From Alphaproteobacteria bacterium (GTDB lineage: Bacteria > Pseudomonadota > Alphaproteobacteria > UBA9219 > RGZA01): a stretch of DNA of 64,000 nucleotides. Numbering within the stretch: position 1 is the stretch's first letter; the number at the start of each line of letters is the position of its first letter. Of this stretch, positions 1,629 through 63,796 are shown piece after piece. The notes under the pieces are model-generated. The model had not been told where the DNA came from, searched no databases, and saw nothing but the letters and a program-made list of their open reading frames with translations. The DNA lies in NCBI GenBank assembly GCA_021732145.1, contig JAKFVN010000002.1, positions 1 to 64,000 on the forward strand, read 5' to 3'. The translations under genes and the position numbers were made by a program.

Positions 1629-2276
1629 ATGTCGATCATTTTCACCAAGAACAAGCTGGTTATCGCAACCCATAACGCCGGTAAGGTTAAAGAATTCGCG
1701 GTTCTTATTAACCAAGAAGGTCTTTCGCTGCTCAGCGCGGGCGAACTGAATTTACCCGAGCCAGAGGAAACAGGCCTAACCTTTGCCGCCAATGCGGAGC
1801 TAAAATCACGTGCCGCCGCATCAGCGTCTGGGCTTCCCGCACTTGCAGATGATAGCGGATTGAGCGTGGATGCATTGGATGGCGCACCAGGAATTTATTC
1901 CGCAAGGTGGATGAGAGAAACAGGCGCAGTCGCGGTTGTTCCGCACAGCGGAACAGAGCAGTCGCGCCAAACAAATCCAGCGTTTGATAAAATCAAAAAG
2001 CTTCTCATCGATAAAAACATCAATCCGAATGGTGCGCGGGCGGCCTTTATTTGCGTGCTATCCCTCACCTTGCCTGATGGAAAAACCATACTGGCAGAAG
2101 GAAACGTTGCGGGGCAATTGTGCTTTCCGCCGCGCGGCGCGGGCGGGTTTGGCTATGACCCGATTTTTATTCCGGATGGAGACACCCGAAGTTTTTCCGA
2201 GATGCCGCAGAATGAAAAAAACAAATACAGCCACCGCGCACGCGCTGTTATGGAATTGAAAAAGCATATCGGATGA
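1629..2276 (+). CDS. rdgB: XTP/dITP diphosphatase (RdgB/HAM1 family) with an in-frame repeat insertion
   Basis: KLVIATHNAGKVKEF, ADDSGLSVDALDGAPGIYSARW, GFGYDPIF motifs; overlaps hemW by ATGA. Confidence 0.95.
   Translation: MSIIFTKNKLVIATHNAGKVKEFAVLINQEGLSLLSAGELNLPEPEETGLTFAANAELKSRAAASASGLPALADDSGLSVDALDGAPGIYSARWMRETGAVAVVPHSGTEQSRQTNPAFDKIKKLLIDKNINPNGARAAFICVLSLTLPDGKTILAEGNVAGQLCFPPRGAGGFGYDPIFIPDGDTRSFSEMPQNEKNKYSHRARAVMELKKHIG
1925..1979 (+). repeat. Palindromic element, copy in rdgB
   Basis: GTCGCGGTTGTTCCGCACAGCGGAACAGAGCAGTCGCGCCAAACAAATCC; GTTCCGC/GCGGAAC stem. Confidence 0.75.
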
Positions 2277-3448
2277 AACTGGGGATGAAACCACTTGCCT
2301 TATACATCCATTGGCCGTTTTGTTTAGCAAAATGCCCCTATTGCGACTTCAACAGCCATGTGAATGCACGCGCCCAAAATAAACAAGAACATGAAACGCG
2401 CATGGTGAATGCGCTGCTTTCCGAAATGCGGTATTGGCATGAACGCGTTACGCCGCGTCCCCTCACCTCCATCTTTTTTGGTGGCGGCACGCCTTCCCTG
2501 CTCGCGCCGTCCAATGTCGCGCTGCTTTTGAATGAGGCAAATAAGCTGTTTGGCTTCTCGCCCACCATCGAAATCACGCTCGAAGCCAACCCGACCAGCA
2601 GCGAAGCCGAAAAATTCAAAGGCTTTGCCGATGCCGGCATCAACCGTTTATCCATCGGCGTTCAATCGCTCAATGATGCGGATTTAAAGGCATTGGGGCG
2701 TGAACACACAGTTTCGGAGGCTATTGGTGCGATTGAAATGGCGCAGCGTATGTTCAAGCGCCATTCCTTTGATTTGATCTATGCCCGTAAAGGGCAGTCA
2801 TTGAACCAATGGGAAAACGAACTCCGCGCAGCGCTGAAACTCGCTGCTGCGCATCTATCGCTTTATCAACTCACCATCGAACCCGGCACAGTGTTTGCGC
2901 AGAAAACCGCTGCGGGTCATACATTCACCGCGCTGGATGATGTGGCAGATGAAATGTACGCACTAACCCAAAGCATCTGCGAAGATGCCGGTTTGCCGGC
3001 CTATGAGGTTTCCAACCATGCAAGGGTGGGGGAGGAAAGCCGCCATAATCTTTCCTACTGGCATTACGATGAATATATGGGCATTGGCCCCGGCGCGCAT
3101 GGCAGGGTACACATGAATGATAATTATTTTTCTACCAATACGCTGCGTCCACCCGAACAATGGCTGCGCGACGTGGAAGCCAAAAAAGTCGGGTTGGAAA
3201 GCCAAGCTGAATTATCCAGAAACGACCAGAAAACCGAGCATGTATTGATGAATTTGCGTTTATTCAACGGCATTAACAAAGCCGATTGGCAGGCGCGTTA
3301 CGCTGAACCGCTCTACACTTTTTTGAATACCAAAAACAAAGAATTTTATATTGCGGAAAATCTTCTGGCAGAAGACACGCATGTTTTACGCGCGACCAAA
3401 AACGGCATGATGATGCTGAACCGCTTAACGGAAAAACTGGTGGCTTGA
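2273..3448 (+). CDS. hemW: Radical SAM heme chaperone HemW / coproporphyrinogen III oxidase-like
   Basis: YIHWPFCLAKCPYCDFNSHV radical-SAM CxxxCxxC motif, FFGGGTPSLL, SIGVQSLND. Confidence 0.93.
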   Translation: MKLGMKPLALYIHWPFCLAKCPYCDFNSHVNARAQNKQEHETRMVNALLSEMRYWHERVTPRPLTSIFFGGGTPSLLAPSNVALLLNEANKLFGFSPTIEITLEANPTSSEAEKFKGFADAGINRLSIGVQSLNDADLKALGREHTVSEAIGAIEMAQRMFKRHSFDLIYARKGQSLNQWENELRAALKLAAAHLSLYQLTIEPGTVFAQKTAAGHTFTALDDVADEMYALTQSICEDAGLPAYEVSNHARVGEESRHNLSYWHYDEYMGIGPGAHGRVHMNDNYFSTNTLRPPEQWLRDVEAKKVGLESQAELSRNDQKTEHVLMNLRLFNGINKADWQARYAEPLYTFLNTKNKEFYIAENLLAEDTHVLRATKNGMMMLNRLTEKLVA

Positions 3449-3449
3449 G

Positions 3450-4639: not shown

Positions 4640-4712
4640 TAAGGATTTTTATGCAGTTTGAAAACCGAAGCGCAGCGTACGCATAAGTACGTGAGCACCA
4701 GAAGGGCACAGA
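4640..4712 (+). repeat. Second dispersed repeat family (ACCGGAGCGCAG...), degenerate copy
   Basis: GAAAACCGAAGCGCAGCGTACGCATAAGTACGTGAGCACCAGAAGGGCACAGAGG. Confidence 0.75.
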
Positions 4713-4745
4713 GGCGTAAAAAGCCACCGCCGCAGTCAGGGATTA

Positions 4746-5561: not shown

Positions 5562-5713
5562 AGATACAAACGTACCCGAAACGAGTTAACGAGACCTTGA
5601 AATTGTCCGGTATCTTATTGATATTACTATGTAATTTTGGATTTAGGCTAAATATGTTTTGAATTTTATATGTCTGAGAAAGCCCAATTTTGACTAGGTT
5701 TAGGCGAAAATCA

Positions 5714-5777
5714 TGGATTTCGAGAACCGGAGCGCAGTGTACGTTTGAGTACATGAGCACCGGAAGCGCAGAAATAC
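5714..5777 (+). repeat. Second dispersed repeat family, copy 2
   Basis: GATTTCGAGAACCGGAGCGCAGTGTACGTTTGAGTACATGAGCACCGGAAGCGCAGAAATAC. Confidence 0.9.
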
Positions 5778-5798
5778 GCGATTTGCAGACAGACCTAG

Positions 5799-7151
5799 TT
5801 AAAATTTACGCGGCGCCGGGTCAACAACCTTCGTGCCGCCAGCGGTTACTTCGAGTACCGCAAGGCCGCGCTCGGCTACCCCGTCATGATTAAGCCTGAA
5901 AATTCCATCCAATCCGGCGAAACCACTTGGATTGGTTAATGCGTTTTCATCATAACCTTGCCCCTGTTTTGCCAGAACCGCCACCAACGCGGTTGCATCG
6001 TAAGCTAGGCTGGCAAGACGCACGGGCTTTGCGCCATATGCTTTTTGATAACGCGATACGAATTTGGAACGCTGCGCAGGGTCGCTCGTTGCAAAAAATC
6101 CGCCGACCAGAACATTGTATTGCTGCACATTCTGTTCATCCCATAATCCGGTGCCGATAATAGGAATATCATGCGCCGACAAAGCAACAGCGGTTAACTC
6201 TGCCGCAACACTTCCCAAGGCCGCGCCGCCATCCGGCAATAAAATGCCTTGTATTTCGCCGCGCTTTGCAGAGATGGCAGCTACTGCTTTTTTGATGCTG
6301 TCCTTGCTGTTTGCGTAACGCTGCGTTTCAACAATGCTGATGCCGGAATTTTGCGCAGCCGCCACGGCCATGTCACCATAAATGGATGATGGCGCAAGGA
6401 TGGCGATGCTGCGCACGCCCTTTGCCGATGCATATTGCAAGGCGCGTTGCACTTGCTGCATTGGGCTGAAGCCCAGCACATAGGTGCCGCCGCCCGCCAC
6501 ATTCGCATCATTGGTCAGCGCCAGAACGGGCACGCGGCCAGCGATGAATGTTTTTACTTCGGCTGCGCTTTCGGAAAAGACGGGGCCGATGATGACCTGC
6601 GCGCCTTCTTCCATTGCCAGCGTGGCCGCGCGCACCGCGTCGGTAGCACTCGAGCCGCTATCGCGCGGAATAAGTTCAAAATTATCTGCCGATAAATCAT
6701 TCACCGCCATTTGCGCAGCGTCCTGGAATGACTTGCCCATGCTGGCGTTTTTGCCCGAAAGCGGCAGCAGCAATGCAACCTTCACCGCACGCGCATTCGT
6801 TGGCTTTCCGGCCATGCTTTGGGGTTGTTGTGCAGGCAATGTTCCATCCAGCGTGCCTTGCTGCACTCCATTATTTCCTGCGCTATCCAATGGCTGGCTG
6901 GTCACTTCGCCGGCTGGGGCGGGCGCTTCGGCAGTGCCGTTTTGCTGGCCACCTGCCTTATAGCCGCCGGATGCGCGGTCGGTTCGAAACCAGCTGCCCA
7001 CTTCACGCGACATATTGGAGGCGGTGTTGCAACCGCCAAGCGTTAACAGAAAAACGGCAAGAAGCGCAGCGCATGAAATACGTTGCCCGAACTGACCAGC
7101 GAGGCGGCGGTTTATGCCGCCGAATAAACAATTTTTATTTGGGGTTCGCAT
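5799..7151 (-). CDS. Penicillin-binding protein activator / periplasmic-binding-protein-like lipoprotein (LpoA-like)
   Basis: Lipobox LLTLGGCNT; KVALLLPLSGKNASMGKSFQDAAQMAV; divergent from rsmI, a common alphaproteobacterial arrangement. Confidence 0.85.
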   Translation of the reverse strand: MRTPNKNCLFGGINRRLAGQFGQRISCAALLAVFLLTLGGCNTASNMSREVGSWFRTDRASGGYKAGGQQNGTAEAPAPAGEVTSQPLDSAGNNGVQQGTLDGTLPAQQPQSMAGKPTNARAVKVALLLPLSGKNASMGKSFQDAAQMAVNDLSADNFELIPRDSGSSATDAVRAATLAMEEGAQVIIGPVFSESAAEVKTFIAGRVPVLALTNDANVAGGGTYVLGFSPMQQVQRALQYASAKGVRSIAILAPSSIYGDMAVAAAQNSGISIVETQRYANSKDSIKKAVAAISAKRGEIQGILLPDGGAALGSVAAELTAVALSAHDIPIIGTGLWDEQNVQQYNVLVGGFFATSDPAQRSKFVSRYQKAYGAKPVRLASLAYDATALVAVLAKQGQGYDENALTNPSGFAGLDGIFRLNHDGVAERGLAVLEVTAGGTKVVDPAPRKF

Positions 7152-7195: not shown

Positions 7196-8182
7196 GTGGC
7201 TAGCGGTAAAAAATATAAGGGCGAACCAGCAAAAAAGCAAGAACGCGCAGGCGCGGGTGCGCCCAGTTCGTCCGAGCGGGTGCGCGATAGCGCAGAGCGA
7301 ATGACGAATAGGGGCGCAGAGCGTTCGCGCAAAAATACTTCTGGGAGCTTGGCTTTAATAGCCACTCCTATCGGCAATTCTGCGGATATTTCGCTGCGCG
7401 CGCTCGATACGCTGCGCAAGGCCGAACTCATCTTTTGCGAGGATACGCGGCAAACCCAGAAGCTGCTGATGATGCATGGCATAACCGGCAAGAAACTGGT
7501 GGCAGCGCACCAGCATAATGAAGCCGCGGCCGCCAAAAAAATCCTTGAAGAAATCAATGCCGGCAAGACCATTGCCTATGCCAGCGATGCGGGCTTGCCT
7601 CTCATTTCTGATCCTGGCGAAACCATCATGCAGGTGATGATAGAAGAGGGCGTGAATGTCACCAGCATTCCCGGCGCGAATGCGGCGCTGACCGCATTGC
7701 AACTTTCCGGCCTGCCGCCACTGCCGTTTTATTTCGCGGGATTTTTGCCGCCCAAAACCAAAGCGCGCAAAGACGCGCTGAAACTATTGCACTCCATTCC
7801 AGCGACGCTGGTGTTTTATGAAGCGCCGCATCGCCTGGCCGAAACGCTAGCCGATATGCTGGCCGTGCTGGGTAACCGCCATGCCGCCTATGCGCGCGAG
7901 CTAACGAAAATGCATGAAGAAGTGCAACGCGGCACCTTATCGGAGCTTTCAAAGCACACCGAAAAACAGGAACGCATTCGCGGCGAATGCGTGATTTGCA
8001 TTGCGCCGCCAGATGCAGAAACCGCGCAGCATGATGATGCGGATGAAATTGATAAACTGCTTTTAAGCGCGCTCCAAACACTCAGCCCGCGCGATGCCGC
8101 CTTTGATGTTGCCGCCAAAACCGGGCAGCAACGCCGCGCATTATATCAACGCATCTTGGAATTGAAATCAAACACGCGGTAA
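7196..8182 (+). CDS. rsmI: 16S rRNA (cytidine(1402)-2'-O)-methyltransferase
   Basis: LIATPIGNSADISLRALDTLRKAELIFCEDTRQTQKLL, ASDAGLPLISDPGE. GTG start at 7196 preceded by AAGGAGAAAAGC; the N-terminal extension contains the palindromic repeat. Confidence 0.9.
   Translation: MASGKKYKGEPAKKQERAGAGAPSSSERVRDSAERMTNRGAERSRKNTSGSLALIATPIGNSADISLRALDTLRKAELIFCEDTRQTQKLLMMHGITGKKLVAAHQHNEAAAAKKILEEINAGKTIAYASDAGLPLISDPGETIMQVMIEEGVNVTSIPGANAALTALQLSGLPPLPFYFAGFLPPKTKARKDALKLLHSIPATLVFYEAPHRLAETLADMLAVLGNRHAAYARELTKMHEEVQRGTLSELSKHTEKQERIRGECVICIAPPDAETAQHDDADEIDKLLLSALQTLSPRDAAFDVAAKTGQQRRALYQRILELKSNTR
7264..7336 (+). repeat. Palindromic element, long-form copy in rsmI 5' region
   Basis: CAGTTCGTCCGAGCGGGTGCGCGATAGCGCAGAGCGAATGACGAATAGGGGCGCAGAGCGTTCGCGCAAAAA. 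Confidence 0.88.
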
Positions 8183-13880: not shown

Positions 13881-14153
13881 ATGAAGTTTACCGTGAATAT
13901 GGAATGCTCCCCTGAAGAAGCCCGCGCGTTTTTCGGACTGCCCGATGTGCAGCCCATGCAGCAGGCGATGATGAAGGAAATGCAGGAACGCATGATGTCC
14001 GGCATCAAGCAAATGGAACCGGATAAAATGATGCAGCAATGGCTGCCCATGAGCATGCAGGCCTTTGACCAATTCCAGAAAATGTTCTGGTCAAGCATGC
14101 AAGGTGGGGGGCAAACAGCAGCGCCCACCGTGCAAGCGGCGAATAAAAAATAG
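13881..14153 (+). CDS. Small conserved Met/Gln-rich protein (DUF6489-like)
   Basis: MKFTVNMECSPEEARAFFGLPDVQPMQQAMMKEMQERM; ATG at 13881 with upstream purine-rich RBS. Confidence 0.75.
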   Translation: MKFTVNMECSPEEARAFFGLPDVQPMQQAMMKEMQERMMSGIKQMEPDKMMQQWLPMSMQAFDQFQKMFWSSMQGGGQTAAPTVQAANKK

Positions 14154-14192
14154 CGTGCGAGTGGTTGTGCCTCTTGGCACAGAACGAGCCGC
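14154..14192 (+). repeat. Palindromic element, intergenic copy
   Basis: GCGTGCGAGTGGTTGTGCCTCTTGGCACAGAACGAGCCGC; TGTGCC/GGCACA stem. Confidence 0.8.
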
Positions 14193-14206
14193 AATAAAGG
14201 ACTCTG

Positions 14207-14518: not shown

Positions 14519-14519
14519 C

Positions 14520-17163: not shown

Positions 17164-18282
17164 ATGTCCTTCTCGTTTACGCTCCCCAAATGGTATGATT
17201 TGCATACGCATATGCGCCAGGGGGCATTGCTTGCGCCGCTGATTGAGCAGCATTTGAAAATGGGCTGCGCCGGCATTCTGGCAATGCCCAACACCAAGCC
17301 CCCCGTTGCCAAGGTTTTGAAAAGCGATGCGGGCGCTGATTTATCCATCGAAGAATATGTCTCGCAATTGAACGCCGCTGGCGGTCATGCGTTTTCCGAC
17401 ATCATTGCTCCTTTATATCTCTCGGCTGCAACCACGGCGCAGATGATTACGGCGGGCGCGCAATCTGGTTTGCTACGCGCTGCCAAATATTACCCGCCGC
17501 ATGGCACCACCAATTCTGAAAAAGCCATGTCGCTGAGCCATTTCATTCAAAACGGCGTGATTGCCGCGCTGGAAGAGCATGGCGTGGTGCTTTGCATTCA
17601 CGGCGAAAAGCACGATGTGGAAGGCGAAGCGTATTTTGGCCGCGGCACCAATGCGGAAGAAGCGTTTTATGAGGAAAAAATGCATTTACTCTGCGCCAGC
17701 TTCCCGAATTTGAAAATTGTCGCCGAGCATATTACCACCAAAATCGCCGCTGATTTTGTCAATGGATGCGGGGGTAATGTCGCGGCCACCATCACGCCGC
17801 AGCATCTGTTGTATAATGTCGGGCACATGATGCAGGGGCTGAAATATCACCTTTACTGCATGCCGGTTGTGAAATTTGAGGAAGACCGCGAAGCCCTGCG
17901 CCGTGCCGTGCTTGACCCCCTTAACACCAAATTCTTTGCGGGCACCGACAGCGCGCCGCACTGCGTGAAGGCAACGCCCTGCGGCTGCGCGGCGGGTTGC
18001 TATACGGGCGGCATTGCCCCGCAACTCTACGCACAGGCATTTGAAAACGCAGGCGCGGATTTATCAAACGCGAAAACGCAGCAAGCCTTCATCCATTTCT
18101 TGTGCACCAATGGCGCGCAGTTTTATAATCTTCCTGTGCCAAGCGAAACCTTCACGCTCTCGCGCAGGCCATCGGAAGTGCACGCGCTGAAAACCGAGCT
18201 TGGCACCATCACGCCATTGCCGATTGGCATGCTATCCACCCAGGCAACCAGCACCACGCTGAACTGGAGCGTGGAATGCTGA
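17164..18282 (+). CDS. pyrC: Dihydroorotase (class II, PyrC type)
   Basis: WYDLHTHMRQGALL, AMPNTKPP, ITPQHLLYN, FFAGTDSAPH. Confidence 0.9.
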   Translation: MSFSFTLPKWYDLHTHMRQGALLAPLIEQHLKMGCAGILAMPNTKPPVAKVLKSDAGADLSIEEYVSQLNAAGGHAFSDIIAPLYLSAATTAQMITAGAQSGLLRAAKYYPPHGTTNSEKAMSLSHFIQNGVIAALEEHGVVLCIHGEKHDVEGEAYFGRGTNAEEAFYEEKMHLLCASFPNLKIVAEHITTKIAADFVNGCGGNVAATITPQHLLYNVGHMMQGLKYHLYCMPVVKFEEDREALRRAVLDPLNTKFFAGTDSAPHCVKATPCGCAAGCYTGGIAPQLYAQAFENAGADLSNAKTQQAFIHFLCTNGAQFYNLPVPSETFTLSRRPSEVHALKTELGTITPLPIGMLSTQATSTTLNWSVEC

Positions 18283-19385
18283 TGAAGCTGCTGCATCTTC
18301 TGCCCCCTGAAGACGCGCACGCCCTTACCATTAAAGCATTGCAGCTTGGCCTTGCGCCGGAGTTGCAAAATAATTCTGATTTAAGCCTGTCGCTGTTTGG
18401 CAAAATCATCCGCAATCCCATCGGGCTTTCAGGGGGGGCAGATAAGGAAGCGGCCGCGCTGGCGGGCTGGTCAAAAATGGGCTTTGGCATAGTGGAAGCG
18501 GGCACCGTCACCATGCATGCACGAAAGGGCAATCCGCGCCCGCGCATGTGGCGCATAAAACCAGCCCGAGCGGTTGCGCCACCTGCGTCAGCAATGGGCA
18601 CAGAGCGAATGGTGCATGATTACGCAGTTGTAAACTGGCTGGGCTTGCCCGGCCAAGGCCTGCCGAATTTCGTGAAAAACCTGCGTGAATTTCATAATCA
18701 CCCATCGCGCAAGAATTTATGCGTGGGCGCAAGCATCGCATCACCCGATAATGTGCTGGCTGAGTTTGAAATGCTGGCTGAAAGCATTCAGCCATATGTC
18801 GATTATATCACGCTCAATGCATCATGCCCCAATGTTGCCGATCACAGCCACCGCATTGAAGACACGGCCGCCGCGCACATCCAAAGGGTCAAGCAAGGTG
18901 CGGGCCGCATTCCAGTATTGGTCAAGCTTGGCCCGACCAATCACAAGGAATCGCTGGAGCGAATTGTCAACGCGGCATTGGCTGCAGGCATTAATGGCTT
19001 TGTTGCAACCAACACCGTTCCTTATGCGAGCAGAGAATTACTGGGCAACGTCAATTTCGAATGGCCTGAAGCATTCAAGGACGGCGACGGCCGACCTCAA
19101 AAAGACTCTGGGAGCTTGCGCGAGCGAAGCCCAGCGGCATCTGAGCGAATTAAAGTCGGCGGATATTCCGGCAAACGGCTGCTCGATATTTCCTGCTGGA
19201 TGGTGAGTGAAATACGAAAACTGGTTCCAGAATCCATGCCTATTATCGGCGTGGGCGGTGTGCAAAGCGGGAATGATGCCAAGCGCTTGATGCGCAGCGG
19301 CGCGAACGCCATCCAGCTTTACACGGGCCTCATTTACAAAGGCCCCGCGCTGCTCAACGACATCGCCAGCGCGCTTTCAGAATAA
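18276..19385 (+). CDS. pyrD: Quinone-dependent dihydroorotate dehydrogenase with two in-frame insertions
   Basis: NPIGLSGGADKEA, VEAGTVT, TLNASCPNV, VKLGPT, GATNTV-like and GVGGVQSGNDAKRLMRSGANAIQLYTGLIYKGP motifs. Confidence 0.93.
   Translation: MLMKLLHLLPPEDAHALTIKALQLGLAPELQNNSDLSLSLFGKIIRNPIGLSGGADKEAAALAGWSKMGFGIVEAGTVTMHARKGNPRPRMWRIKPARAVAPPASAMGTERMVHDYAVVNWLGLPGQGLPNFVKNLREFHNHPSRKNLCVGASIASPDNVLAEFEMLAESIQPYVDYITLNASCPNVADHSHRIEDTAAAHIQRVKQGAGRIPVLVKLGPTNHKESLERIVNAALAAGINGFVATNTVPYASRELLGNVNFEWPEAFKDGDGRPQKDSGSLRERSPAASERIKVGGYSGKRLLDISCWMVSEIRKLVPESMPIIGVGGVQSGNDAKRLMRSGANAIQLYTGLIYKGPALLNDIASALSE
18562..18618 (+). repeat. Palindromic element, copy in pyrD
   Basis: AGCCCGAGCGGTTGCGCCACCTGCGTCAGCAATGGGCACAGAGCGAATGGTGCATGA. 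Confidence 0.85.
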
Positions 19386-22668: not shown

Positions 22669-22742
22669 TACATACTATTGTATGTGTTTCACGTGAAACA
22701 TTTTTGATAAGTCATTGTTTTAAAATATCATTTTGAAAAATA
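22669..22742. repeat. parS-containing repeat, copy 1
   Basis: ~74 bp, first 36 nt identical to copy 2 at 24812-24885. Confidence 0.85.
22685..22700. promoter_or_regulatory. parS site (ParB-binding palindrome)
   Basis: TGTTTCACGTGAAACA, perfect 16-bp palindrome matching the bacterial parS consensus; parAB ~11 kb away. Confidence 0.92.
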
Positions 22743-22746
22743 CCTT

Positions 22747-22797
22747 GCGCCCGAGCGGTTGCGCCTTTTGGCGCAGAGCGAATGGCGAAAAAATATG
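22747..22797 (+). repeat. Palindromic element, copy upstream of mnmG
   Basis: CGCCCGAGCGGTTGCGCCTTTTGGCGCAGAGCGAATGGCGAAAAAATATGC. Confidence 0.9.
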
Positions 22798-24811: not shown

Positions 24812-24885
24812 TACATACTATTGTATGTGTTTCACGTGAAACATTTTCGATAAATCATTGTTTCACAACACTATTTTAAAAAACA
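24812..24885. repeat. parS-containing repeat, copy 2
   Basis: Near-identical to 22669-22742, also with ACATACTATTGTATGT immediately upstream of the parS palindrome. Confidence 0.85.
24828..24843. promoter_or_regulatory. parS site (ParB-binding palindrome)
   Basis: TGTTTCACGTGAAACA exact second copy. Confidence 0.92.
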
Positions 24886-24897
24886 CTCTTGTGAGTG

Positions 24898-32589: not shown

Positions 32590-33219
32590 ATGGCCAGCAC
32601 CTTCACAGAAAGCGACTTCCTAACCGCCACCGAGGTAAGCCCTGAGGTGATGGCGAAGCTGCGCCATTATCACGCGAAATTATTAGAGTGGAACCCGAAG
32701 ATTAATTTGGTTTCAGCAAGCACCGCCGATGAAGCATGGCAACGTCACTTCATGGATAGCGCGCAGCTTTATCCCGTTTACCGCCATTCGGGCGATGAAA
32801 ACATAACCCTTGCCGATATGGGCAGCGGCGCTGGCTTTCCCGGCATGGTGCTGGCGATTATGGGCGCGCCCAATGTAACCCTGATTGAAAGAGATGTAAG
32901 GAAAGCCGCCTTTTTGCGCACCATTGCAGCCGAAACCAAGACCAATATCAACCTTTTGAACCTGGACGTTAAGAATGTGCCGGGGCCATTTGACATCATC
33001 ACCAGCAGGGCGTTGGCCGAGCTTTCCGAGCTGCTGGACATGTCGGAACATATGCGTAAACCATCCACACATTGCTTGTTTTTAAAGGGGAAAAACCTTG
33101 ACGCTGAACTCGTAAAAGCGCAAAAAGATTGGGCAATGGAGGTGCGCAAAATGGAAAGCGTAACCGACAACGATGCCTATATCATCAGGCTCACGGATAT
33201 TAAACGACTATCGCCTTAG
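32590..33219 (+). CDS. rsmG: 16S rRNA (guanine(527)-N(7))-methyltransferase
   Basis: YHAKLLEWNPKINLVSASTADEAWQRHFMDSAQL, LADMGSGAGFPGMVLAI. Confidence 0.95.
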   Translation: MASTFTESDFLTATEVSPEVMAKLRHYHAKLLEWNPKINLVSASTADEAWQRHFMDSAQLYPVYRHSGDENITLADMGSGAGFPGMVLAIMGAPNVTLIERDVRKAAFLRTIAAETKTNINLLNLDVKNVPGPFDIITSRALAELSELLDMSEHMRKPSTHCLFLKGKNLDAELVKAQKDWAMEVRKMESVTDNDAYIIRLTDIKRLSP

Positions 33220-33263
33220 CGCACATTATGCTGCGTTTTTAGGCAGCATTTAGGGGGCGCGCT

Positions 33264-34106
33264 TTGGTTGAGACTTTTCCACCCGTTAAAGTTTCTTTGG
33301 GCCGCATTATCGCATTAGCTAATCAAAAAGGCGGCGTGGGTAAAACAACCACCGCCGTAAATCTTGCAACCGCCCTTGCCGCCGTTGGCAAAAAAGTATT
33401 GGTTGTTGATGCCGACCCGCAAGGCAATGCGTCCACCGGTTTTGGCATCATGCGCTCCAAGCGCGGTATGGGTACGTATGAGTTACTCGCAGCCGAAGCG
33501 CGGGTGAGCGAAGTTGCACAAGCCACCATCATCCCGAATTTATCCATCGTCACATCATCGACCGCTCTCGCTGGCGCGGAAATTGAATTGGTGTCAGCCG
33601 AGCAACGCGAATACCGTTTGCGCAATGGATTGGAAGAAGCACGTGACACCTATGACTTCGTGCTCATCGACTGCCCGCCATCCTTGAACATGCTCACGCT
33701 GAATGCATTGGTGGCTGCTGATGACGTATTAGTGCCGCTGCAATGCGAGTTTTACGCATTGGAAGGCGTGTCGCAACTGGTGCGCACCATTGAACGCGTA
33801 AAGCAGGCATTCAACCCCGATTTGGAAATTGAAGGCGTTGTGCTGACCATGTATGACAAGCGCAACGGGCTTTCTGCCACCGTTGAACATGATGTGCGTG
33901 AATTCTTTGGCGAGAAAGTTTTTGAAACCGTTATTCCGCGCAATGTGCGTGTTTCCGAAGCGCCATCGCATGGCAAGCCTGTGCTGGTTTATGATCTGAA
34001 ATGCCCCGGCAGCCAGGCCTATATGCATCTGGCGCGTGAAGTATTGCTGCGCGACCGCGCGATGCTTGCCCAAAAGAAACCAGGTCACGAACAACGCGTC
34101 GCTTAA
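33264..34106 (+). CDS. parA: Chromosome partitioning ATPase ParA
   Basis: IALANQKGGVGKTTTAVNLATALAAVGKKVLVVDADPQGNASTGFGI; TTG start as in track. Confidence 0.96.
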   Translation: MVETFPPVKVSLGRIIALANQKGGVGKTTTAVNLATALAAVGKKVLVVDADPQGNASTGFGIMRSKRGMGTYELLAAEARVSEVAQATIIPNLSIVTSSTALAGAEIELVSAEQREYRLRNGLEEARDTYDFVLIDCPPSLNMLTLNALVAADDVLVPLQCEFYALEGVSQLVRTIERVKQAFNPDLEIEGVVLTMYDKRNGLSATVEHDVREFFGEKVFETVIPRNVRVSEAPSHGKPVLVYDLKCPGSQAYMHLAREVLLRDRAMLAQKKPGHEQRVA

Positions 34107-34140
34107 ACAAGTAGGCTTAATATTTTTAAAAAGATAAACC

Positions 34141-35151
34141 ATGACCAATCCATTGAGGAACGATATGAACGCCCCAATTTCACAACAGAACAACCCTGCA
34201 AAGCCAGCGCGTCTGGGCAAAGGCCTTTCCGCAATTTTTGCCGATGAAGACCCGACCGCGCCCGACCAAACCGGCAATCCGCGCACGCTGCCCGTTGGCC
34301 AGATTTATCCAAATGCCAAACAGCCACGTAAGGTTTTCGACAAGCAAGCTTTGGATGATTTAACCGCCAGCATCAAGGAAAAGGGCATTTTGCAGCCCAT
34401 TTTGGTGCGCCCGCATCCTGATAAATCCAACGCTTATGAAATCGTGGCAGGGGAGCGCCGTTGGCGCGCATCGCAGCAAGCGCAATTGCATGAAGTACCC
34501 GTCATCATCCGCGATATTAAAGACCGTGACGCGCTGGAATTTGCGCTCATTGAAAACATGCAGCGCGATGATTTAACGCCGATGGAAGAAGCCGAAACCT
34601 TCCAGCGTTTGACAACCGAATTTGGCCATAGCCAGGAAGAGATTGGAACGGCTTTGGGTAAAAGCCGCACCTATATTACAAACACGCTTCGCCTGTTGCA
34701 ATTGCCGGATGCGGTAAAGCAATTGATGCGTGACCATAAAACGCTGACCGGAAGCCATGCGCGTGCATTGCTTTCTGCTAAAAATCCTTTGGCGCTAGCG
34801 AATGAAGTGGTGCAGGGCGGATTATCGGTGCGTCAAACCGAAAACCTTGCCAAGACCAGCCATGACGAAAAAGGCGTAGCAGCAGGGGAAGGCGGTAAGC
34901 GCAAGCCACAGCTGCAATTGCCAAAAACCGCACGCAAGGGCAGTGCCTCACAACGCAGCCAAAGCGCACGCACCATTACCAGCAATGACAGCGCTGATAT
35001 CAAAGCACTGGAACGCGAAGTATCGTCATGGCTTGGTTTGAAAGTTGCGCTCACCCAAAAAGGTGATGGCGGCAAATTGCTGATTGACTATCAGACGCTC
35101 GACCAGTTGGAAGACGTGCTGAAACGCCTCTCCATCCCACCAAAAGAATAA
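34141..35151 (+). CDS. parB: Chromosome partitioning protein ParB
   Basis: GKGLSAIFAD, LPVGQIYPNAKQPRKVFD, GERRWRASQQAQLHEVPVIIRD, ENMQRDDLTPMEEAETFQRL. Confidence 0.96.
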   Translation: MTNPLRNDMNAPISQQNNPAKPARLGKGLSAIFADEDPTAPDQTGNPRTLPVGQIYPNAKQPRKVFDKQALDDLTASIKEKGILQPILVRPHPDKSNAYEIVAGERRWRASQQAQLHEVPVIIRDIKDRDALEFALIENMQRDDLTPMEEAETFQRLTTEFGHSQEEIGTALGKSRTYITNTLRLLQLPDAVKQLMRDHKTLTGSHARALLSAKNPLALANEVVQGGLSVRQTENLAKTSHDEKGVAAGEGGKRKPQLQLPKTARKGSASQRSQSARTITSNDSADIKALEREVSSWLGLKVALTQKGDGGKLLIDYQTLDQLEDVLKRLSIPPKE

Positions 35152-36459: not shown

Positions 36460-37074
36460 CTAGTGACACTTCAGCGTAATCACGAAGGCACCTGCGCCGC
36501 CATATTCGCGCGGCGCCTCTCGTACCCCCGAAATATGCCGCGCACTTTCATGGCGCGCATTCAGCCAAAGAACTAAATTTTTCTTTAGCACACCGTTGCT
36601 TCCCGACGCGCTTCCCTTGCCTGTAATAATCAAAACTGTTTTGCAGTGCTGCGCATGGCTTTGCGCGATGAAGCTAATGGCCTTGCGGTGCGCGGCTTCC
36701 TGCGTCAGGCCATGCAAATCGAGGCGCGCATCAATCTTGCGTTTCTTATTTTTGATATTGGAAAATACATCCGCGGCAATCGCGGGGATTTCCGCATGGT
36801 GTTTTTTATGCGCGTGTTTTGCGGCTGGCGCATGCGCGACCGGTTCCCATTTCTTCTTTAACGGCGCGGATTGAACAACATGTTTGACGCGCGCATGCGC
36901 TGGCTCGGCATCCGTTTTGAGCTTGCGCTTTTTCTGGTGTTTTTCGGTTTTCTTATGCGGCTCAATGACGGAAGTCGCTGCTTTCCACAGCGCGCGGTCT
37001 TCATCGGTTAAATGCGTTTTTTTCTTCATCTGCGTCACATGTTTTGGGCGAACCCTCTGCGCCCTATTCGTCAT
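36460..37074 (-). CDS. Smr/MutS2 domain protein (start may be 37029)
   Basis: IDARLDLHGLTQEAAHRKAISFIAQSHAQHCKTVLIITGKG...; ATG at 37074 lies within a palindromic repeat. Confidence 0.88.
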   Translation of the reverse strand: MTNRAQRVRPKHVTQMKKKTHLTDEDRALWKAATSVIEPHKKTEKHQKKRKLKTDAEPAHARVKHVVQSAPLKKKWEPVAHAPAAKHAHKKHHAEIPAIAADVFSNIKNKKRKIDARLDLHGLTQEAAHRKAISFIAQSHAQHCKTVLIITGKGSASGSNGVLKKNLVLWLNARHESARHISGVREAPREYGGAGAFVITLKCH

Positions 37075-37129
37075 TCGCTCTGCGCCTTCTTGTTAAAACA
37101 AGGCGACGCAACCGCTCGGACGAAGTTGG
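37045..37129 (-). repeat. Palindromic element, long-form copy at smr 5' end
   Basis: Minus strand: CTTCGTCCGAGCGGTTGCGTCGCCTTGTTTTAACAAGAAGGCGCAGAGCGAATGACGAATAGGGCGCAGAGGGTTCGCCC. Confidence 0.9.
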
Positions 37130-37154
37130 CGTAACCGGCCCTGCCCTATAAAAA

Positions 37155-49341: not shown

Positions 49342-50394
49342 ATGAAGAAGAATAAAAAACTTTTATCCATTCTGAAAAATGAACCTTCGACGCATACGCC
49401 GATCTGGCTCATGCGCCAGGCCGGGCGCTACCTTCCCGAATATCGTGACTTGCGTTCCCGCGCAGGTTCGTTTATGAACCTTTGCTTCAATCCTGAAATG
49501 GCCGCCGAAGTCACCTTGCAGCCGGTTCGCCGGTTCGGTGTTGATGGCGCGATTTTATTCTCTGACATCCTGGTGGTTCCATATGGCCTTGGTTACAAAC
49601 TTGATTTCATCGAAAACGAAGGACCTCAGCTTGAAACCGCGTCCGAAGACGATGCTTCAAACCGCCATGTTCCAAACAGATTGGCCGCGTTTGAAGCCGA
49701 AAGCTTTTTCAAGCGCACTGCGCCGATTTATGAAACTGTGCGCCGAAGTAAAGCCGCCCTCCCGCCTGATGTAACGATGATCGGTTTTGCAGGCTCGCCA
49801 TTCACGGTTGCCTGTTACATGCTGGGTGGAAAAGGCAAAGACGAATTTGTCACTGCCCGCCAAAAAGCCCAGGAAAACCCGAGGTTTTTCGCGCATATCC
49901 TTGAATGCCTGATAGATGCCACCAGCTTTTACTTGAAAGAGCAAATCAAGGCAGGCGCAGAAGTCGTGCAGCTTTTTGATAGCTGGTCAGGGTTGGTTCC
50001 AGCAGAGCAATTCGATGAATGGGTGATTGCCCCTACCACGAAAATCACCGCCGCGGTAAAGCAGGAATTTCCGGATATTCCCATTATCGGTTTTCCGCGC
50101 ATGGCGGGCGAAAAAATCGCACGCTACGCAGAGGCAACAAAGGTGGATGCTATATCACTTGACCAAACTGTGGATTTGAACTGGGCGCAAAAGAATGTAT
50201 CAGTGGCACTGCAAGGCAATCTTGACCCGGAACGGATGCTGGGCGAAAAGCAACCCATGCTGGCGGCGGCGGAGAAAATCATGCGCGACATGCAGCGCCC
50301 ATTCATTTTTAATTTGGGTCATGGATTAACGCCGCACGTGCCGCCTGAAAACGTCGCGGCACTGGTTGAATTTGTGCAAGGGTTTAAGAAATGA
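49342..50394 (+). CDS. hemE: Uroporphyrinogen decarboxylase
   Basis: TPIWLMRQAGRYLPEYRDLR, GFAGSPFTVACYMLGG, FNLGHGLTPHVPPENV; start at MKKNKK. Confidence 0.96.
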   Translation: MKKNKKLLSILKNEPSTHTPIWLMRQAGRYLPEYRDLRSRAGSFMNLCFNPEMAAEVTLQPVRRFGVDGAILFSDILVVPYGLGYKLDFIENEGPQLETASEDDASNRHVPNRLAAFEAESFFKRTAPIYETVRRSKAALPPDVTMIGFAGSPFTVACYMLGGKGKDEFVTARQKAQENPRFFAHILECLIDATSFYLKEQIKAGAEVVQLFDSWSGLVPAEQFDEWVIAPTTKITAAVKQEFPDIPIIGFPRMAGEKIARYAEATKVDAISLDQTVDLNWAQKNVSVALQGNLDPERMLGEKQPMLAAAEKIMRDMQRPFIFNLGHGLTPHVPPENVAALVEFVQGFKK

Positions 50395-51365
50395 AAACCG
50401 CAGTCATTCTTTTCAACCTTGGCGGCCCCGATAAGCTGGACAGCGTAAAGCCGTTTTTGCTCAATTTATTCAAGGATAAGGCCATTTTAAGCGTACCGTG
50501 GTTTATCCGCTATCCGCTGGCATTGCTTATTTCCACAAGCCGCGAAAAAGAAGCTAGGCATATTTATGCAGCGATTGGCGGCGGATCGCCGCTGTTGCCA
50601 AACACAATTGCGCAAGCCCAAGCTCTGGAAAAAAAACTTGGCACGAATTACAAAGTATTCACCGTGATGCGGTACTGGCACCCGTTTGCGAAAGATGTGG
50701 CCAAGGATGTGAAGGCCTATGTGCCGGACAAAATCATCTATCTGCCGCTTTACCCGCAATACTCCACCACCACTACAAAATCCTCATTCGAGGATTTTGA
50801 TAAATGTTTTTTTGGGCATAATGGCTCTGCGCCAAAAGGCGCAATCGCGACCACGCCATTTGTCACCAAAATTATTTCTTACGAAACCAATGCAGGCCTG
50901 GTGAATGCTTATGCCAAACTCATCAAGCCGATTTATGAGGATGTGAAGGCCAAGGCAGGAAAAGCGCCGCGTATTTTATTCTCCGCGCATGGCTTGCCGC
51001 AAAAAACCATTGATGCGGGCGACCCCTATCAGAAACAGGTCTATGCGACGTGCAAGGCCGTGGTTGCTGCATTGAACATCCCTGGCCTGGATTGGAAAAA
51101 CACCTTCCAGAGCCGCGTTGGCCCGTTGAAATGGATTGAACCCTACACCGATAAGGAAATTGAAGTGGCGGGCGGAGAAAAAATGCCGCTGCTCATTGTG
51201 CCCATCGCGTTTGTCAGCGAGCATTCCGAAACCTTGTATGAAATCGAGCAGCAATACCGCGAACTTGCCAAAGAAAAAGGCGTGTCGGTTTTTGCGCGCG
51301 TGCCCGCGGTTGCAACTCACCCTGACTTTATTGACGGGCTGGCGGAGCTGGTACGTAAGGCTTAA
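50391..51365 (+). CDS. hemH: Ferrochelatase with an in-frame repeat-derived segment
   Basis: VILFNLGGPDKLDSVKPFLLNLFKD, LPLYPQYSTTTTKS, LFSAHGLPQKTID, QSRVGPLKWIEPYTD; ATGA overlap with hemE. Confidence 0.95.
   Translation: MKTAVILFNLGGPDKLDSVKPFLLNLFKDKAILSVPWFIRYPLALLISTSREKEARHIYAAIGGGSPLLPNTIAQAQALEKKLGTNYKVFTVMRYWHPFAKDVAKDVKAYVPDKIIYLPLYPQYSTTTTKSSFEDFDKCFFGHNGSAPKGAIATTPFVTKIISYETNAGLVNAYAKLIKPIYEDVKAKAGKAPRILFSAHGLPQKTIDAGDPYQKQVYATCKAVVAALNIPGLDWKNTFQSRVGPLKWIEPYTDKEIEVAGGEKMPLLIVPIAFVSEHSETLYEIEQQYRELAKEKGVSVFARVPAVATHPDFIDGLAELVRKA
50805..50852 (-). repeat. Palindromic element, inverted copy inside hemH
   Basis: Minus strand: GCGATTGCGCCTTTTGGCGCAGAGCCATTATGCCCAAAAAAACATT. Confidence 0.82.
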
Positions 51366-55318: not shown

Positions 55319-56767
55319 ATGACAGATAATAACGAAAAACCCGCAGAAAAAACCGGTCTTAAAAAAGAACGCCTCACCGTAAAGCTCGCAGAAAAACCAG
55401 CCCCCGCCCCAGTGGTAGCGGAAGAGGCTGCGCCCGCGGCTGAAACAGCCCAAAGTGCGGTCGAAGCGTTTGGCGCGCACAACGGCACCCATGATGGTGA
55501 GGGCAAGCCGATGAATTTGAAGGAATTAAAGGTCAAGAATGCCGGCGAACTTTTAAAGATTGCCGAAGAACTGCAAATTGAAAATGCAGGCACGCTGCGT
55601 AAGCAGGATATGATGTTCGCGATTTTGAAATCGCTCGCTGAAAAAGACGTGCCGATTGCCGGTGATGGCGTTTTGGAAGTATTGCAGGATGGGTTCGGCT
55701 TCCTGCGCTCCCCTGAATCCAACTATTTGCCCGGCCCGGATGATATTTACGTAAGCCCAAGCCAGGTTCGCAAATTCGGTTTGCGCACCGGTGATACGGT
55801 GGAAGGCCAAATTCGTTCCCCCAAAGACGGCGAGCGTTATTTCGCGCTGCTCAAAGTAAACTCCATCAACTTTGATGACCCGGATAAAATCCGTCACCGC
55901 ATCAATTTTGATAACCTCACGCCGCTCTACCCGATGAAGAAGATTAACCTCGAAATCATCGATGCGAAGGCGAAGGATTTAACGACACGTATTATCGATT
56001 TGGTATCGCCGCTGGGTAAAGGCCAGCGCGCGCTGATTGTTGCGCCGCCGCGTACCGGTAAAACCGTGATGATGCAAAACATCGCGCATGCGATTACCGC
56101 CAACCATAAGGAAGTATATTTAATCGTACTTCTGATTGATGAACGCCCCGAAGAAGTGACCGATATGTCGCGCAGCGTGAAGGGCGAGGTTATTTCATCT
56201 ACGTTCGATGAACCAGCATCCCGCCACGTTCAGGTAACGGAAATGGTGCTGGAAAAGGCGAAGCGTTTGGTGGAAGCCAAGCGTGACGTCGTGATTTTGC
56301 TGGATAGCATTACGCGCCTTGCGCGCGCTTATAACACCGTTGTTCCATCATCCGGTAAAGTGCTGACCGGCGGTGTGGACGCCAACGCCTTGCAACGCCC
56401 GAAACGCTTTTTCGGCGCGGCGCGTAACATTGAAGAAGGCGGCTCCCTCACCATTATCTCCACCGCGCTCATCGATACCGGCAGCCGTATGGACGAAGTG
56501 ATCTTTGAAGAATTCAAAGGCACGGGTAACAGTGAAATTGTGCTCGACCGCAAGCTCGCCGATAAACGTACCTTCCCATCGATTGATATTTCGAAATCCG
56601 GTACGCGTAAGGAAGAATTGCTGGTCGATAAGGCAACCCTCACCAAAATGTGGGTGCTGCGCCGTATCCTTATGCCGATGGGTACATCCGACAGCATCGA
56701 GTTCCTGGTTGATAAGCTTAAGACAAGCAAATCCAACCATGATTTCTTTGATTCAATGAATACCTAA
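55319..56767 (+). CDS. rho: Transcription termination factor Rho
   Basis: [81 protein letters not shown]. Confidence 0.97.
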
Positions 56768-56792
56768 ATTCTAACTAGGCCGTTGGCTTTTT

Positions 56793-56855
56793 GACGATTT
56801 CTGCGCTTCCGGTACGCACGTACTTAACGTACGCTGCGCTCCGGTTCTCGAAATC
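56793..56855 (-). repeat. Second dispersed repeat family, copy 3 (opposite orientation)
   Basis: GACGATTTCTGCGCTTCCGGTACGCACGTACTTAACGTACGCTGCGCTCCGGTTCTCGAAATCATTC. Confidence 0.9.
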
Positions 56856-56907
56856 ATTCAAAAATCCTTAGGCCTAGCGAATTTAAATATTCTGCCGCTT
56901 ATCAAAA

Positions 56908-57628: not shown

Positions 57629-58708
57629 TTACTTCCCGAGCCGTGCCACATTATAAAGGGCGCGTTCGCCAAGGCGCTCGGCGGGCATGCCGGTGGTTTT
57701 GCATTTCATCTCGGCTTCCAATAATGCGCACATGGCGTCCATGACTTTGCCAAGTGTCCAGCTGCGTAGTTGTTTTTGCATTTGCGCTTCGCGCTTGAAG
57801 AAAATGGGCGGGCGCATGGTCTTTACCGCTTCCATCGCGCCCATATGCTCTTCATCCATTTTGCCGAGGCCTTCGTAAATTTTGGTCAAATGGCGCGTGG
57901 CCGCGCGAAGGAATTGAATGGGCTGCACGCCTTCTGCCGCTAATTTCGCCAGCATCGCATCAAGCTTGGCGATATCACCCGAAGCCGCGGCCCACACCGC
58001 ATCATCCACTTCCTCACCCGCTGCATCGGTAATGCAGGCGGCGATATGCTCAACCGTGATATTTTTTTGGCGCGATGCCTCTGCGCCACCTGAAGAAGGT
58101 GTTGCAACCGGCCCTGCGCTTGGGTTCATCGCGTATGTGATAAGCTTATCCACTTCCATGCGAATGCCGCTGCGGTCAGGCGGTAATGCTGCGCAAAGCG
58201 CTGCCAGCGCGTCGCGGTCAATTGTGAAGCCTTCGGCCTTTATCATGCTTGAAATCGTCGCACTGAGATCCGCGCCTTCCTCCGCATAGCACGGAATGGC
58301 CATCGCCTTGGCATCATCTTCCACGCGGTTGCGCAGTTTGGAGCGTTTATCCAATTCGCCCGCTTCCAGCACCAGTACGCTGTCGCCCGATGGCAAATTT
58401 GCAAGCAAATGGTCGATGGCAGAAAAAGCAGAACCTTCACCCGCATCGCGCATGCGCACCAGTCGCCTTCCACCCATCATGGAGATGGACGACATTTCAT
58501 CATGCAAGCGCGATGGATTTTCATCGAGCGAGGAGGGAGAAATTTCCGAAACCGAAAATGGGTCGTTCACATCGGGCACGCATTTCGCGGCCAGTTTTTG
58601 CGCGCGTTCACGCACCAAGCCTGCATCGGGCCCGTAGAGCAAGAAGACGCGCATGCCCATATCGGGCTTTTCAATGAACCCAGCGGATTTGTTGGCGCTC
58701 AGCTTCAT
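57629..58708 (-). CDS. holA: DNA polymerase III subunit delta with an in-frame repeat insertion
   Basis: FLLYGPDAGLVRERAQKLA, GRRLVRMRDAGE, LVLEAGELDKRSKLR; adjacent to lptE and leuS. Confidence 0.93.
   Translation of the reverse strand: MKLSANKSAGFIEKPDMGMRVFLLYGPDAGLVRERAQKLAAKCVPDVNDPFSVSEISPSSLDENPSRLHDEMSSISMMGGRRLVRMRDAGEGSAFSAIDHLLANLPSGDSVLVLEAGELDKRSKLRNRVEDDAKAMAIPCYAEEGADLSATISSMIKAEGFTIDRDALAALCAALPPDRSGIRMEVDKLITYAMNPSAGPVATPSSGGAEASRQKNITVEHIAACITDAAGEEVDDAVWAAASGDIAKLDAMLAKLAAEGVQPIQFLRAATRHLTKIYEGLGKMDEEHMGAMEAVKTMRPPIFFKREAQMQKQLRSWTLGKVMDAMCALLEAEMKCKTTGMPAERLGERALYNVARLGK
58058..58121 (-). repeat. Palindromic element, copy in holA
   Basis: Minus strand: GGGCCGGTTGCAACACCTTCTTCAGGTGGCGCAGAGGCATCGCGCCAAAAAAATATCAC. 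Confidence 0.78.
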
Positions 58709-59703: not shown

Positions 59704-59717
59704 GATTACTCCTTAAG

Positions 59718-61097: not shown

Positions 61098-61117
61098 AAG
61101 TTCTCCTAAGTTACGTT

Positions 61118-63796
61118 CTAAGCCACCACATTCACAATCTTGTTGGGGACGATGATAACTTTCTTTGGTTGAGAGCCATTTAATGCGCGCACCACGGAAT
61201 CCTGCGCCAAAGCAATGGCTTCAGCCTTGTCCTTGGCACAATCCCTAGGTAATTCAATGGTTGCGCGGAGTTTACCATTCACCTGCACCGCTATGGTTAC
61301 CACGTTATCAACCAAAAGTGCGGCTTCGGGCGTTGGCCATGCTTCATCGACCAGCATGGTTTTGTGACCCAGCTTTTCCCACATTTCGGATGCGATGTGC
61401 GGCAACATGGGGGAGATAAGTTTGGCTACGGTTTCAACCCCTTCTCGGTAAATTATGCGTTGGTCTTTAGTTTCCTTGAGCATCATGCCAGCATCAGGTT
61501 GTGCGGCATCCTTATTGTTGGAAACAAGAACAGCCGCTGTTCCAACCTTGTACACATGAGATTCATACTCTTGTAAAAGATTTGTCAGTTCGCGAACCGA
61601 GGCAACAGCAGCGTTAAAAGCAAAGCGAGAAAGACAGTCAGTCACACGCGCTATTGTTTTATGAATGTGCTTTTTTAATTTGAGAGCCCCCTCTGCTGGA
61701 GCCCCTTCAATTTTTTCATTGATAGGAGGCAGGTCCAAATTTTCATCATCAACCAAACGCCACAGGCGGTTGATGTAACGCCATGCGCCGTCAATGCCGC
61801 TTTCGGTCCATTCCAGATCGCGCTCCGGCGGGCTGTCGGACAGCATGAAAAGCCGCGCCGTGTCTGCGCCGTAAGCATCAATGATGCGGCCGGGGTCAAC
61901 GACATTGCGCTTGGATTTGCTCATCACCTCAACGCGGCCAACGGTTACAGGGCGGCCTGTTTTTACATTTACAGCCGTGCCATCGGGGCGCTTTTCCATT
62001 TCTTCCGGATAAAGCCATTTGCCGTCTTCGTCTTTGTAGGACTCATGGCAAACCATGCCTTGCGTAAACAATCCCGCAAAGGGTTCTTTCAAACCGACAT
62101 GCCCTGTCTCATTCATCGCGCGGGTAAAGAAACGGGAATAGAGCAAATGCAAAATCGCGTGCTCCACGCCGCCCACATACTGGTCAACCGGCAACCAGTA
62201 ATCGGTCGCTGACTTAGTGATTGGCGCAGCATCATTTTTTGGCGAACAGAACCGCGCGTAATACCAGCTGCTATCCACAAAGGTATCGCAGGTATCGGTT
62301 TCGCGTTGCGCATCCGCCTTACAACTTGGGCATTTCACATGCTTCCATGTGGGGTGGTTATCCAAGGGATTGCCGCCTTTTTTAAAATCGGCATCTTCCG
62401 GCAGCACCACTGGCAATTGGATTTCCGGCACGGGCACCACGCCGCACGCTTTGCAGTGAATGACCGGAATGGGGCAGCCCCAGTAACGCTGGCGTGACAC
62501 GCCCCAATCGCGCAGGCGGAATTGCGTTACGCCTTCGCCAATGCCCATCGATTTCAATTTTTCAATCGCAGTTTTTTTGGCGGTGGCAACATCCAGGCCA
62601 TTCAGGAATCCGGAATTTTGCAATACACCATCGCCTGTATATGGCAATGGCTGCTTCTCACCCTTTTGCGCAATGACTTCAATGACGCTCAATTTATACT
62701 TGGTCGCAAAATCGAAATCGCGCTGGTCATGCGCGGGGCAACCGAAAATTGCACCCGTGCCGTAATCCATCAGCACAAAGTTAGCGATGTATACCGGCAA
62801 TGTTTTACCAGCAATGAAGGGATGCGCAACGGTGAGGCCTGTATCAAAGCCCATTTTCTCTGCGGTTTCGATGGCAGCTGCGGTGGTGCCGATGCGGTTA
62901 CATTCGGTGACAAAATCCGCAAGCTTGGTGTTGTTTTTCGCAAGTTCAGCTGTAATCGGGTGGCCCGGTGAAAGCGCAATGAATGATGCGCCAAATAATG
63001 TATCAGGGCGCGTGGTGAAAACCTCGATAGTCACCATTCGCTCGGCGTCTGCCGCTGGCGCGGGTGACGCGCCCGCCCGGGCGATAGGGGCGGTTAATTT
63101 AAAAAAGACTTTTGCGCCTTCGCTTTTGCCAATCCAGTTTTCCTGCATGAGGCGGACTTTTTCCGGCCATCTATCTAAAGTGGAAAGCGACTGAAGCAAG
63201 TCTTCGGCGTAAGCGGTGATTTTGAAAAACCATTGGTTCAGCTCGCGCTTTTCAACCAGCGCGCCGGAACGCCAGCCACGGCCATCAATCACCTGTTCGT
63301 TCGCCAGCACCGTTTCATCAATCGGATCCCAGTTCACGAAGGATTTACGGCGGTAGGCGAGGCCCTTTTTATAAAAGTCCAAAAACAGTTTTTGTTGCTG
63401 CTTATAATAGGTGACATCGCAGGTCGCGAATTCGCGCGACCAATCGATGGAAAGGCCGATGCGCTTTAATTCGCCGCGCATATTGGCGATGTTGTCATAC
63501 GTCCAGTCCTTTGGCGAAATGCCGCGTTCACGCGCCGCATTTTCGGCTGGCAGGCCAAAAGCATCCCAGCCCATAGGGTGAAGCACATTAAAACCCTGCG
63601 CACGGCGAAGGCGCGCCACCACATCGCCCAGCGTATAATTGCGCACATGGCCCATATGAATGCGGCCCGACGGGTAGGGGAACATCGATAAGACGTAGTA
63701 CTTCTTTTTCGAGGGGTCTTCTTTGGCTTCGAAACTTTTCTTCTCGTTCCAAAGGTTCTGCCACTTTTTTTCAGTCGCGCCGTGATTGTAATTCAT
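61118..63796 (-). CDS. leuS: Leucyl-tRNA synthetase with an in-frame repeat insertion
   Basis: [68 protein letters not shown]. Confidence 0.97.
63030..63088 (-). repeat. Palindromic element, copy in leuS
   Basis: Minus strand: CGCCCGGGCGGGCGCGTCACCCGCGCCAGCGGCAGACGCCGAGCGAATGGTGACTATCG. Confidence 0.78.

Follow-up and report, generated by a model that had tools for sequence, protein, structure and literature searches.

The copies of a short palindromic element dispersed in the genome of an uncultured alphaproteobacterium are oriented according to the direction of the replication fork and not of the genes, and they were inserted into formerly empty sites, some of them in the hairpin loops of older copies. 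The family is real and apparently undescribed. It is probably, with a likelihood of about 60%, a non-autonomous and selfish hairpin mobile element with four cross-recognisable subtypes that would insert at the fork while single-stranded and folded. The mobility of protein-coding palindromes is not settled in the literature found. The near-uniform orientation relative to replication hints at how such elements move, and the family offers a handle on their mobility through its replication-locked orientation, its preferred 5' dinucleotide, its outer bases that vary but stay paired, its nesting in loops and its gradient from the origin. The orientation lock, the gradient and the nesting are new here and go beyond the original prediction, which was made on the window (the whole stretch of 64,000 nucleotides) and proposed a palindrome inserted in frame in housekeeping genes.

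Copies, spread and hairpin structure

A covariance model (R1) was built from the window copies and run against the source genome G000 (2.09 Mb in 54 contigs, the window being contig C6:1-64000) and its relatives. Since R1 was trained on window copies, the remainder of the genome constitutes the independent test. All nine predicted copies were recovered, each no more than a few bases from its predicted position. With filters off, eight were scored by R1 at E<1e-9 and the copy at 63028 at 2e-4, the next-best match in the window having an E of 0.18. The genome search gave 83 matches at E<=1, about 75 of them at E<0.005, and the 3' motif of the element was found 25 times vs once for a reversed control pattern. 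About 84 copies were counted in G000, well beyond the initial nine; 150 of about 1,800 first-look candidates were scored and the count may be low. Chance repeats were ruled out by the genome-wide R1 matches, the motif control and the covariation of the stems.

In the same genus, G002 carries 51-56 copies with R1 and 61 with a second model (R2), and the fragmented assembly G001 carries 15 with R1. R1 also found 12 copies in G004, a single one in G003 (same family) and 0-7 in each of the remaining genomes of the order that were searched, while none of 26 genomes of the class outside the order had a copy. An exact-pattern scan of GTDB genomes returned matches in metagenome-assembled genomes of the host's family and a few scattered singles, taken as chance. 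Plasmids and phages gave weak partial matches only. No Rfam family matched above its gathering score anywhere in the window, and no description of the element sequence was found in Rfam or in the openly available papers that were searched, in agreement with the original prediction, which had not recognised a described family.

The unit is an interrupted hairpin of 45-60 nt. Its outer stem has 4-6 bp and is followed by an asymmetric internal loop, a middle stem of 2 bp and a small bulge, after which come the inner stem, usually of 5-7 bp, and a loop that varies. Mainly the internal loop distinguishes four subtypes: CGAGCGGTT/AGAGCGAAT in subtype A, AGTCGCGGTT/AGAGCAGTC in B, AGGGCCGGTT/AGAGGCATC in C and ACGAGCGGTT/AGAGCGAGTG in D. 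The stem arms covary between copies, as had been predicted: 85.9% of the stem cells are paired, and 105 cells show a double change, compared with 23 after shuffling and 9-31 in slid controls, so that compensatory pairing is well above both controls. The two outermost pairs of subtype B use all four bases, yet one is paired in 26/30 copies (z 5.9) and the other in 29/30 (z 7.3), which points to use of the element as a folded strand. Beyond them pairing falls to chance level, and this sets the boundary of the element. On the 3' side, an A-rich run flanks nearly all copies, and CT is preferred on the 5' side. In intergenic type A copies, CT occupies a fixed 5' position in 13 cases vs 2.2 expected; the 5' dinucleotide of type B copies is CT in nine cases (1.5 expected) and CA in five (1.9 expected). 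The motif CGTC was seen only in a few type A copies, within the stem, and GTAG has no conserved occurrence at the flanks.

Insertion into genes, empty sites and older copies

In the window, six of the nine copies are in-frame inserts in conserved genes, where five or six had been predicted, and the predicted insert peptides of RdgB, PyrD, HemH (inverted), HolA and LeuS were correct on checking. A subtype B copy (1924..1974, plus strand, R1 E 4.9e-12) is sense in rdgB (1629..2276, plus, Pfam Ham1p_like E 1e-55, also recognised by NCBIfam). In rsmI (7196..8182, plus, TIGR00096 E 1.5e-70), the insert is a composite (7243..7333, plus, fold -52.6 kcal/mol, z -5.45) of an outer B-like element whose loop holds a subtype A copy (7268..7312, plus, R1 E 2.8e-11), located in the N-terminal part of the gene; the G002 orthologue is 120 nt shorter at this site. 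A subtype A copy (18562..18621, plus, R1 E 6.8e-10) is sense in pyrD (18276..19385, plus, Pfam DHO_dh E 8e-51), and a B-like copy (50809..50856, minus, R1 E 4.7e-12) is antisense in hemH (50391..51365, plus, Pfam Ferrochelatase E 8e-103). The two genic copies that remain are sense in minus-strand genes: a subtype C copy (58063..58119, minus, R1 E 7.2e-12) in holA (57629..58708, minus, TIGR01128 holA E 2.4e-50) and a degenerate type A copy (63028..63084, minus, R1 E 2e-4) in the editing domain of leuS (61118..63796, minus, TIGR00396 leuS_bact, 1019 bits). Three window copies are intergenic. A subtype D copy (14153..14199, plus, R1 E 2.2e-12) lies upstream of mnmE, G002 having a D copy in the corresponding region, and a subtype A copy (22747..22794, plus, R1 E 5.4e-16) lies upstream of mnmG. 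The third, of subtype A (37063..37123, minus, R1 E 6.2e-12), occupies the loop of an outer C-like element in a composite (37043..37148, minus) that G002 also has at this site. The predicted copies at 7264 and 37045 are thus copy-inside-copy composites.

Genes were called with a simple in-house caller, according to which about 82% of the G000 DNA is coding. When the 84 G000 copies were tabulated, 25 were wholly inside genes, 3 over gene ends and 56 intergenic, which implies strong counter-selection of genic copies (p about 1e-25). The genic copies preserve the reading frame and use mainly one sense and one antisense frame. Compared with G002, the length difference is a multiple of three at 22/23 genic sites vs 11/27 intergenic sites. 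Among sense copies, one frame (ARAVAP..AERM) accounts for 28 cases vs 1 and 6 for the other frames, and among antisense copies one frame (..SAPSGATGPA) for 14 vs 2 and 1; these counts are partly non-independent, since species have some sites in common, and the preference persists once shared sites are removed (p 4e-6 for sense, 0.0015 for antisense). The host genes include rdgB, rsmI, pyrD, hemH, holA, leuS, xseA, purD, pheT, hisF, hisH, hemF, mnmA and a SpoU-type methylase gene.

G000 and G002 were compared as colinear genomes of about 80% identity, too diverged for exact ends or any target duplication to be defined. Among the 84 G000 sites, 59 were assessable: 36 are filled in both genomes, 14 are clean empty in G002 and 9 are absent or rearranged. 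The clean empty sites, located in purD, mnmA, hisF, hisH, holA, leuS and intergenic loci, prove insertion of the element, and many sites are old (36/59 shared), which makes this evidence of past mobility. PurD is the clearest case, with MITNE-GPKLIE in G002 and MITKE-AEPIAETAEASRYKI-VPKLIE in G000, whose gene is exactly 45 nt longer. The other orthologue alignments likewise revealed the lineage-specific inserts that had been predicted. The RdgB and PyrD inserts are present in G000 and G002 and absent from G001. In HolA, G000 (+48 nt) and G001 carry an insert where G002 has an empty site. The LeuS site, too, is empty in G002, the G000 gene being 45 nt longer. Orthologous sites are often occupied by different subtypes in different genomes. 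The HemH loop, empty in G001, carries a type A copy in G002 at the site of the B-like copy of G000. Insertions recur at one editing-domain loop of LeuS, a hot spot where G000, G001 and G026, a genome of a distant genus, carry different subtypes. In G026, too, the insert belongs to the family (G026:C15:11587-11631, E 1.5e-7); inserts shared by distant genera at the same positions without nucleotide similarity, which would have spoken against the prediction, were sought and not found. Between sister species, these genes offer a natural comparison of essential enzymes that have or lack an in-frame insert at a given loop, of use in studying how proteins acquire new segments.

Older copies are themselves targets. 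At rdgB, where G000 and G002 both have a B copy, G002 adds a C copy in its loop and the frame is kept. In total, 13 cases of loop nesting were found by a scan that covered same-strand nesting, with inner and outer copies co-oriented and once three deep. The element also multiplies in tandem, in arrays of 3-7 units, including a three-unit in-frame array in a FAD-dependent monooxygenase gene.

Orientation follows the replication fork

The origin of replication was placed from the rsmG-parA-parB genes (32590..35151, plus, Pfam GidB, ParA-type ATPase and ParB), from two exact parS sites (TGTTTCACGTGAAACA, at 22685..22700 and 24828-24843, chance expectation 0.01) and from the cumulative GC-skew minimum of G002, which lies at about 25-30 kb of its contig C2, colinear with about 30-35 kb of the window. 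Contigs were ordered by inference from the overlaps of the G000 and G002 assemblies, G000 C6 joining G002 C16 and C2, and G000 C8 joining G002 C2 and C5. The strand predicted from replication is held by 89/95 copies. With tandem arrays collapsed, plus and minus copies are distributed 16:1 (G002) and 17:0 (G000) on the left arm and 3:24 (G002) and 2:28 (G000) on the right arm. The two genomes are non-independent samples, many sites being common to both, and the lock is significant in each alone (p 6e-11 in G000, 4e-8 in G002). The orientation flips at the position of the GC-skew minimum and of parABS, inside the window. Since the left-arm fork moves left, the plus-strand element is there the leading-strand template and its complement lies on the lagging-strand template.

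Gene orientation was rejected as the cause of the lock. Genes in the same stretches are split 288:273 between strands, without bias, and where replication and the strand of the nearest gene are in conflict the element sides with replication 23:2; of the 89 copies oriented with the fork, 66 are also sense relative to the gene nearest to them. Per Mb, there are 163 copies on the origin contig, 79 and 44 on the two contigs next to it and about 10 in other parts, a drop of about tenfold with distance from the origin. A training bias of R1 toward origin copies does not account for this gradient, as R2, based on 88 genome-wide copies, shows the same pattern. A second repeat family in the order displays the same fork-orientation lock.

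Routes of movement and comparison with known systems

The hairpin, the one-way orientation at the fork, the nesting in loops and the 5' CT match, by analogy, single-strand transposition of the IS200/IS605 or REP-transposase kind. REP transposases cut at CT/CA (PMC8266576) and the orientation of IS200/IS605 elements tracks host replication (PMC5371812). An enzyme would recognise the folded strand via the asymmetric internal loop (in type A, CGA..GG against A..GAAT) and would cut beside the 5' CT or CA. The cut strand would be joined to the lagging-strand template where this is exposed as single-stranded DNA, and selection would purge gene-breaking copies and retain short Ala/Pro/Ser/Gly-rich peptides at tolerant sites. 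The enzyme may be supplied in trans, may have been lost or may belong to an unrecognised family. Neither of the two copy-richest genomes, G000 and G002, has a match to Y1_Tnp (PF01797), and no element copies flank the Y1 genes of relatives, save one copy inside ispDF beside one Y1 gene; an association with RAYT is therefore unsupported. The copies gather at the origin, whereas IS608 favours termination regions (PMC5371812), which, like the lack of a Y1 match and of a reverse transcriptase, speaks against insertion at the fork.

Hairpins might instead be copied by fork errors, through replication slippage or template switch and ectopic conversion, without any dedicated enzyme. The tandem arrays of 3-7 units, the nesting in loops, the different subtypes at the same orthologous sites and the lack of a detected transposase would fit such copying. 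It is nevertheless unlikely, since full-length units recur at unrelated sites with a preferred 5' CT and a fixed A-rich 3' side and fall into four conserved subtypes, both of which suggest a recognition event. We give equally little credit to a functional polar chromosome element, in which a protein for origin organising, repair or segregation would read oriented hairpins, selection keeping orientation and origin proximity and genic copies being a tolerated by-product. The second repeat family with the same lock is in its favour, but the distribution is patchy (a single copy in G003, a genome of the same family, with 0-7 in most genomes of the order) and site occupancy changes from one sister species to the other. 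Copies nested or in tandem, insertions into coding sequence and clean empty sites also resemble a mobile element and not a maintained site.

It is very improbable that an RNA-level element, such as a terminator or a stability hairpin, is selected at transcript ends. The RNA fold is stable and the excess of sense copies would be expected, but the A-run lies 3' of the hairpin and the T-run 5' on the other strand, so that neither strand is an intrinsic terminator; this flank layout and the absence of an Rfam match led to the rejection of a terminator or RNA family. Copies also occur in all intergenic contexts and inside coding sequence, and replication sets their orientation when in conflict with genes. 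No more credible is retro-insertion, in which a hairpin RNA with an A-rich 3' tail would be reverse transcribed and inserted at lagging-strand primers, like a bacterial SINE. Such a tail is present in nearly all copies and the orientation lock fits Okazaki-fragment priming, but no reverse transcriptase (PF00078) was found in G000-G004. Within the preferred reading of a mobile hairpin, one extension is possible but doubtful: an orphan element without recognised transposase would insert as a folded single strand in fork-exposed DNA near the origin and in the loops of its relatives. The fork-orientation rule obeyed by at least two unrelated repeat families of the order would then imply a general host- or fork-driven route for the spread of small hairpins, which could also explain protein-coding palindromes such as the Rickettsia palindromic elements (RPEs).

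The likeness to RPEs drawn in the original prediction stands in kind, for within one lineage the element is inserted in frame into conserved genes, and does not extend to sequence membership, given the length, sequence and tags. The element works like the protein-coding palindromes of Rickettsia and Wolbachia, yet is not shown to be one of them. Those are alphaproteobacterial palindromes found in frame in housekeeping genes and in intergenic DNA, with different types at the same orthologue site (PMC3767692, PMC2229807). RPEs are 100-150 bp long with long terminal inverted repeats, in contrast to units of 45-60 nt with an outer stem of 4-6 bp, and RPE-4/6 carry a CGTC tag (PMC3733652) that is not a terminal tag of the element; the sequences also differ. 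Loop nesting, replication-locked orientation and an origin gradient are not mentioned in the accounts of RPEs that were consulted. REP/REPIN sequences, which go with RAYT (TnpA_REP) transposases, resemble the element as short imperfect palindromes with conserved bulges, some intragenic copies and CT/CA close to the 5' end (PMC3733652, PMC8266576). Unlike them, the element has no GTAG tag and no RAYT gene in the copy-rich genomes, and it forms head-to-tail arrays and nests in loops, whereas REPs are usually inverted dimers. The IS200/IS605 elements IS608 and ISDra2 are replication-oriented and their hairpins are recognised as folded single strands (PMC5371812); the element differs from them by having no internal transposase gene and by clustering at the origin, not the terminus. 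Lastly, the Betaproteobacterial repeat element BRE, compared by description only, is also dispersed, with tandem arrays and some genic copies, but is reported not to be co-oriented with the fork (PMC3110155), in contrast to the fork-oriented element.

Orientation of a second repeat family

Besides the hairpin element, a second dispersed repeat family was observed, about 100 nt long and with the core GAACCGGAGCGCAG..GTACGTT..GAGCACCGG. It is present in 22 copies in the source genome, including those at window positions 4640-4739, 5716-5808 and 56765-56870, in 16 copies in the sister species G002 and in 11 in the compared genome G010. This family is also oriented with replication. In the source genome and G002, judged from the layout of the contigs, this holds for every one of the roughly 20 copies that fall on a mapped arm. 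In G010, which is near-complete, the orientation changes twice, roughly at the sign changes of the GC skew.

Particular copies of the hairpin element

One of the few departures from the orientation rule of the hairpin element is an inverted copy, the sole inverted one of contig C42, located in a cluster of type A copies (source genome, C42:8281-8886). The FAD-dependent monooxygenase gene at L101:8985-10349 contains three tandem in-frame copies of 54 nt each; its G002 orthologue contains a single one, and the array thus accounts for a coding-length difference of 108 nt. In the relative G022, an ispD-ispF fusion gene harboring a B-like copy (L122:821-874) adjoins an IS200-type transposase gene, the two being probably chance neighbours.

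Direct repeat around mnmG

The gene mnmG is flanked by a 75-nt direct repeat whose copies (window 22669-22743 and 24812-24886) share 88% identity and each enclose an exact parS.
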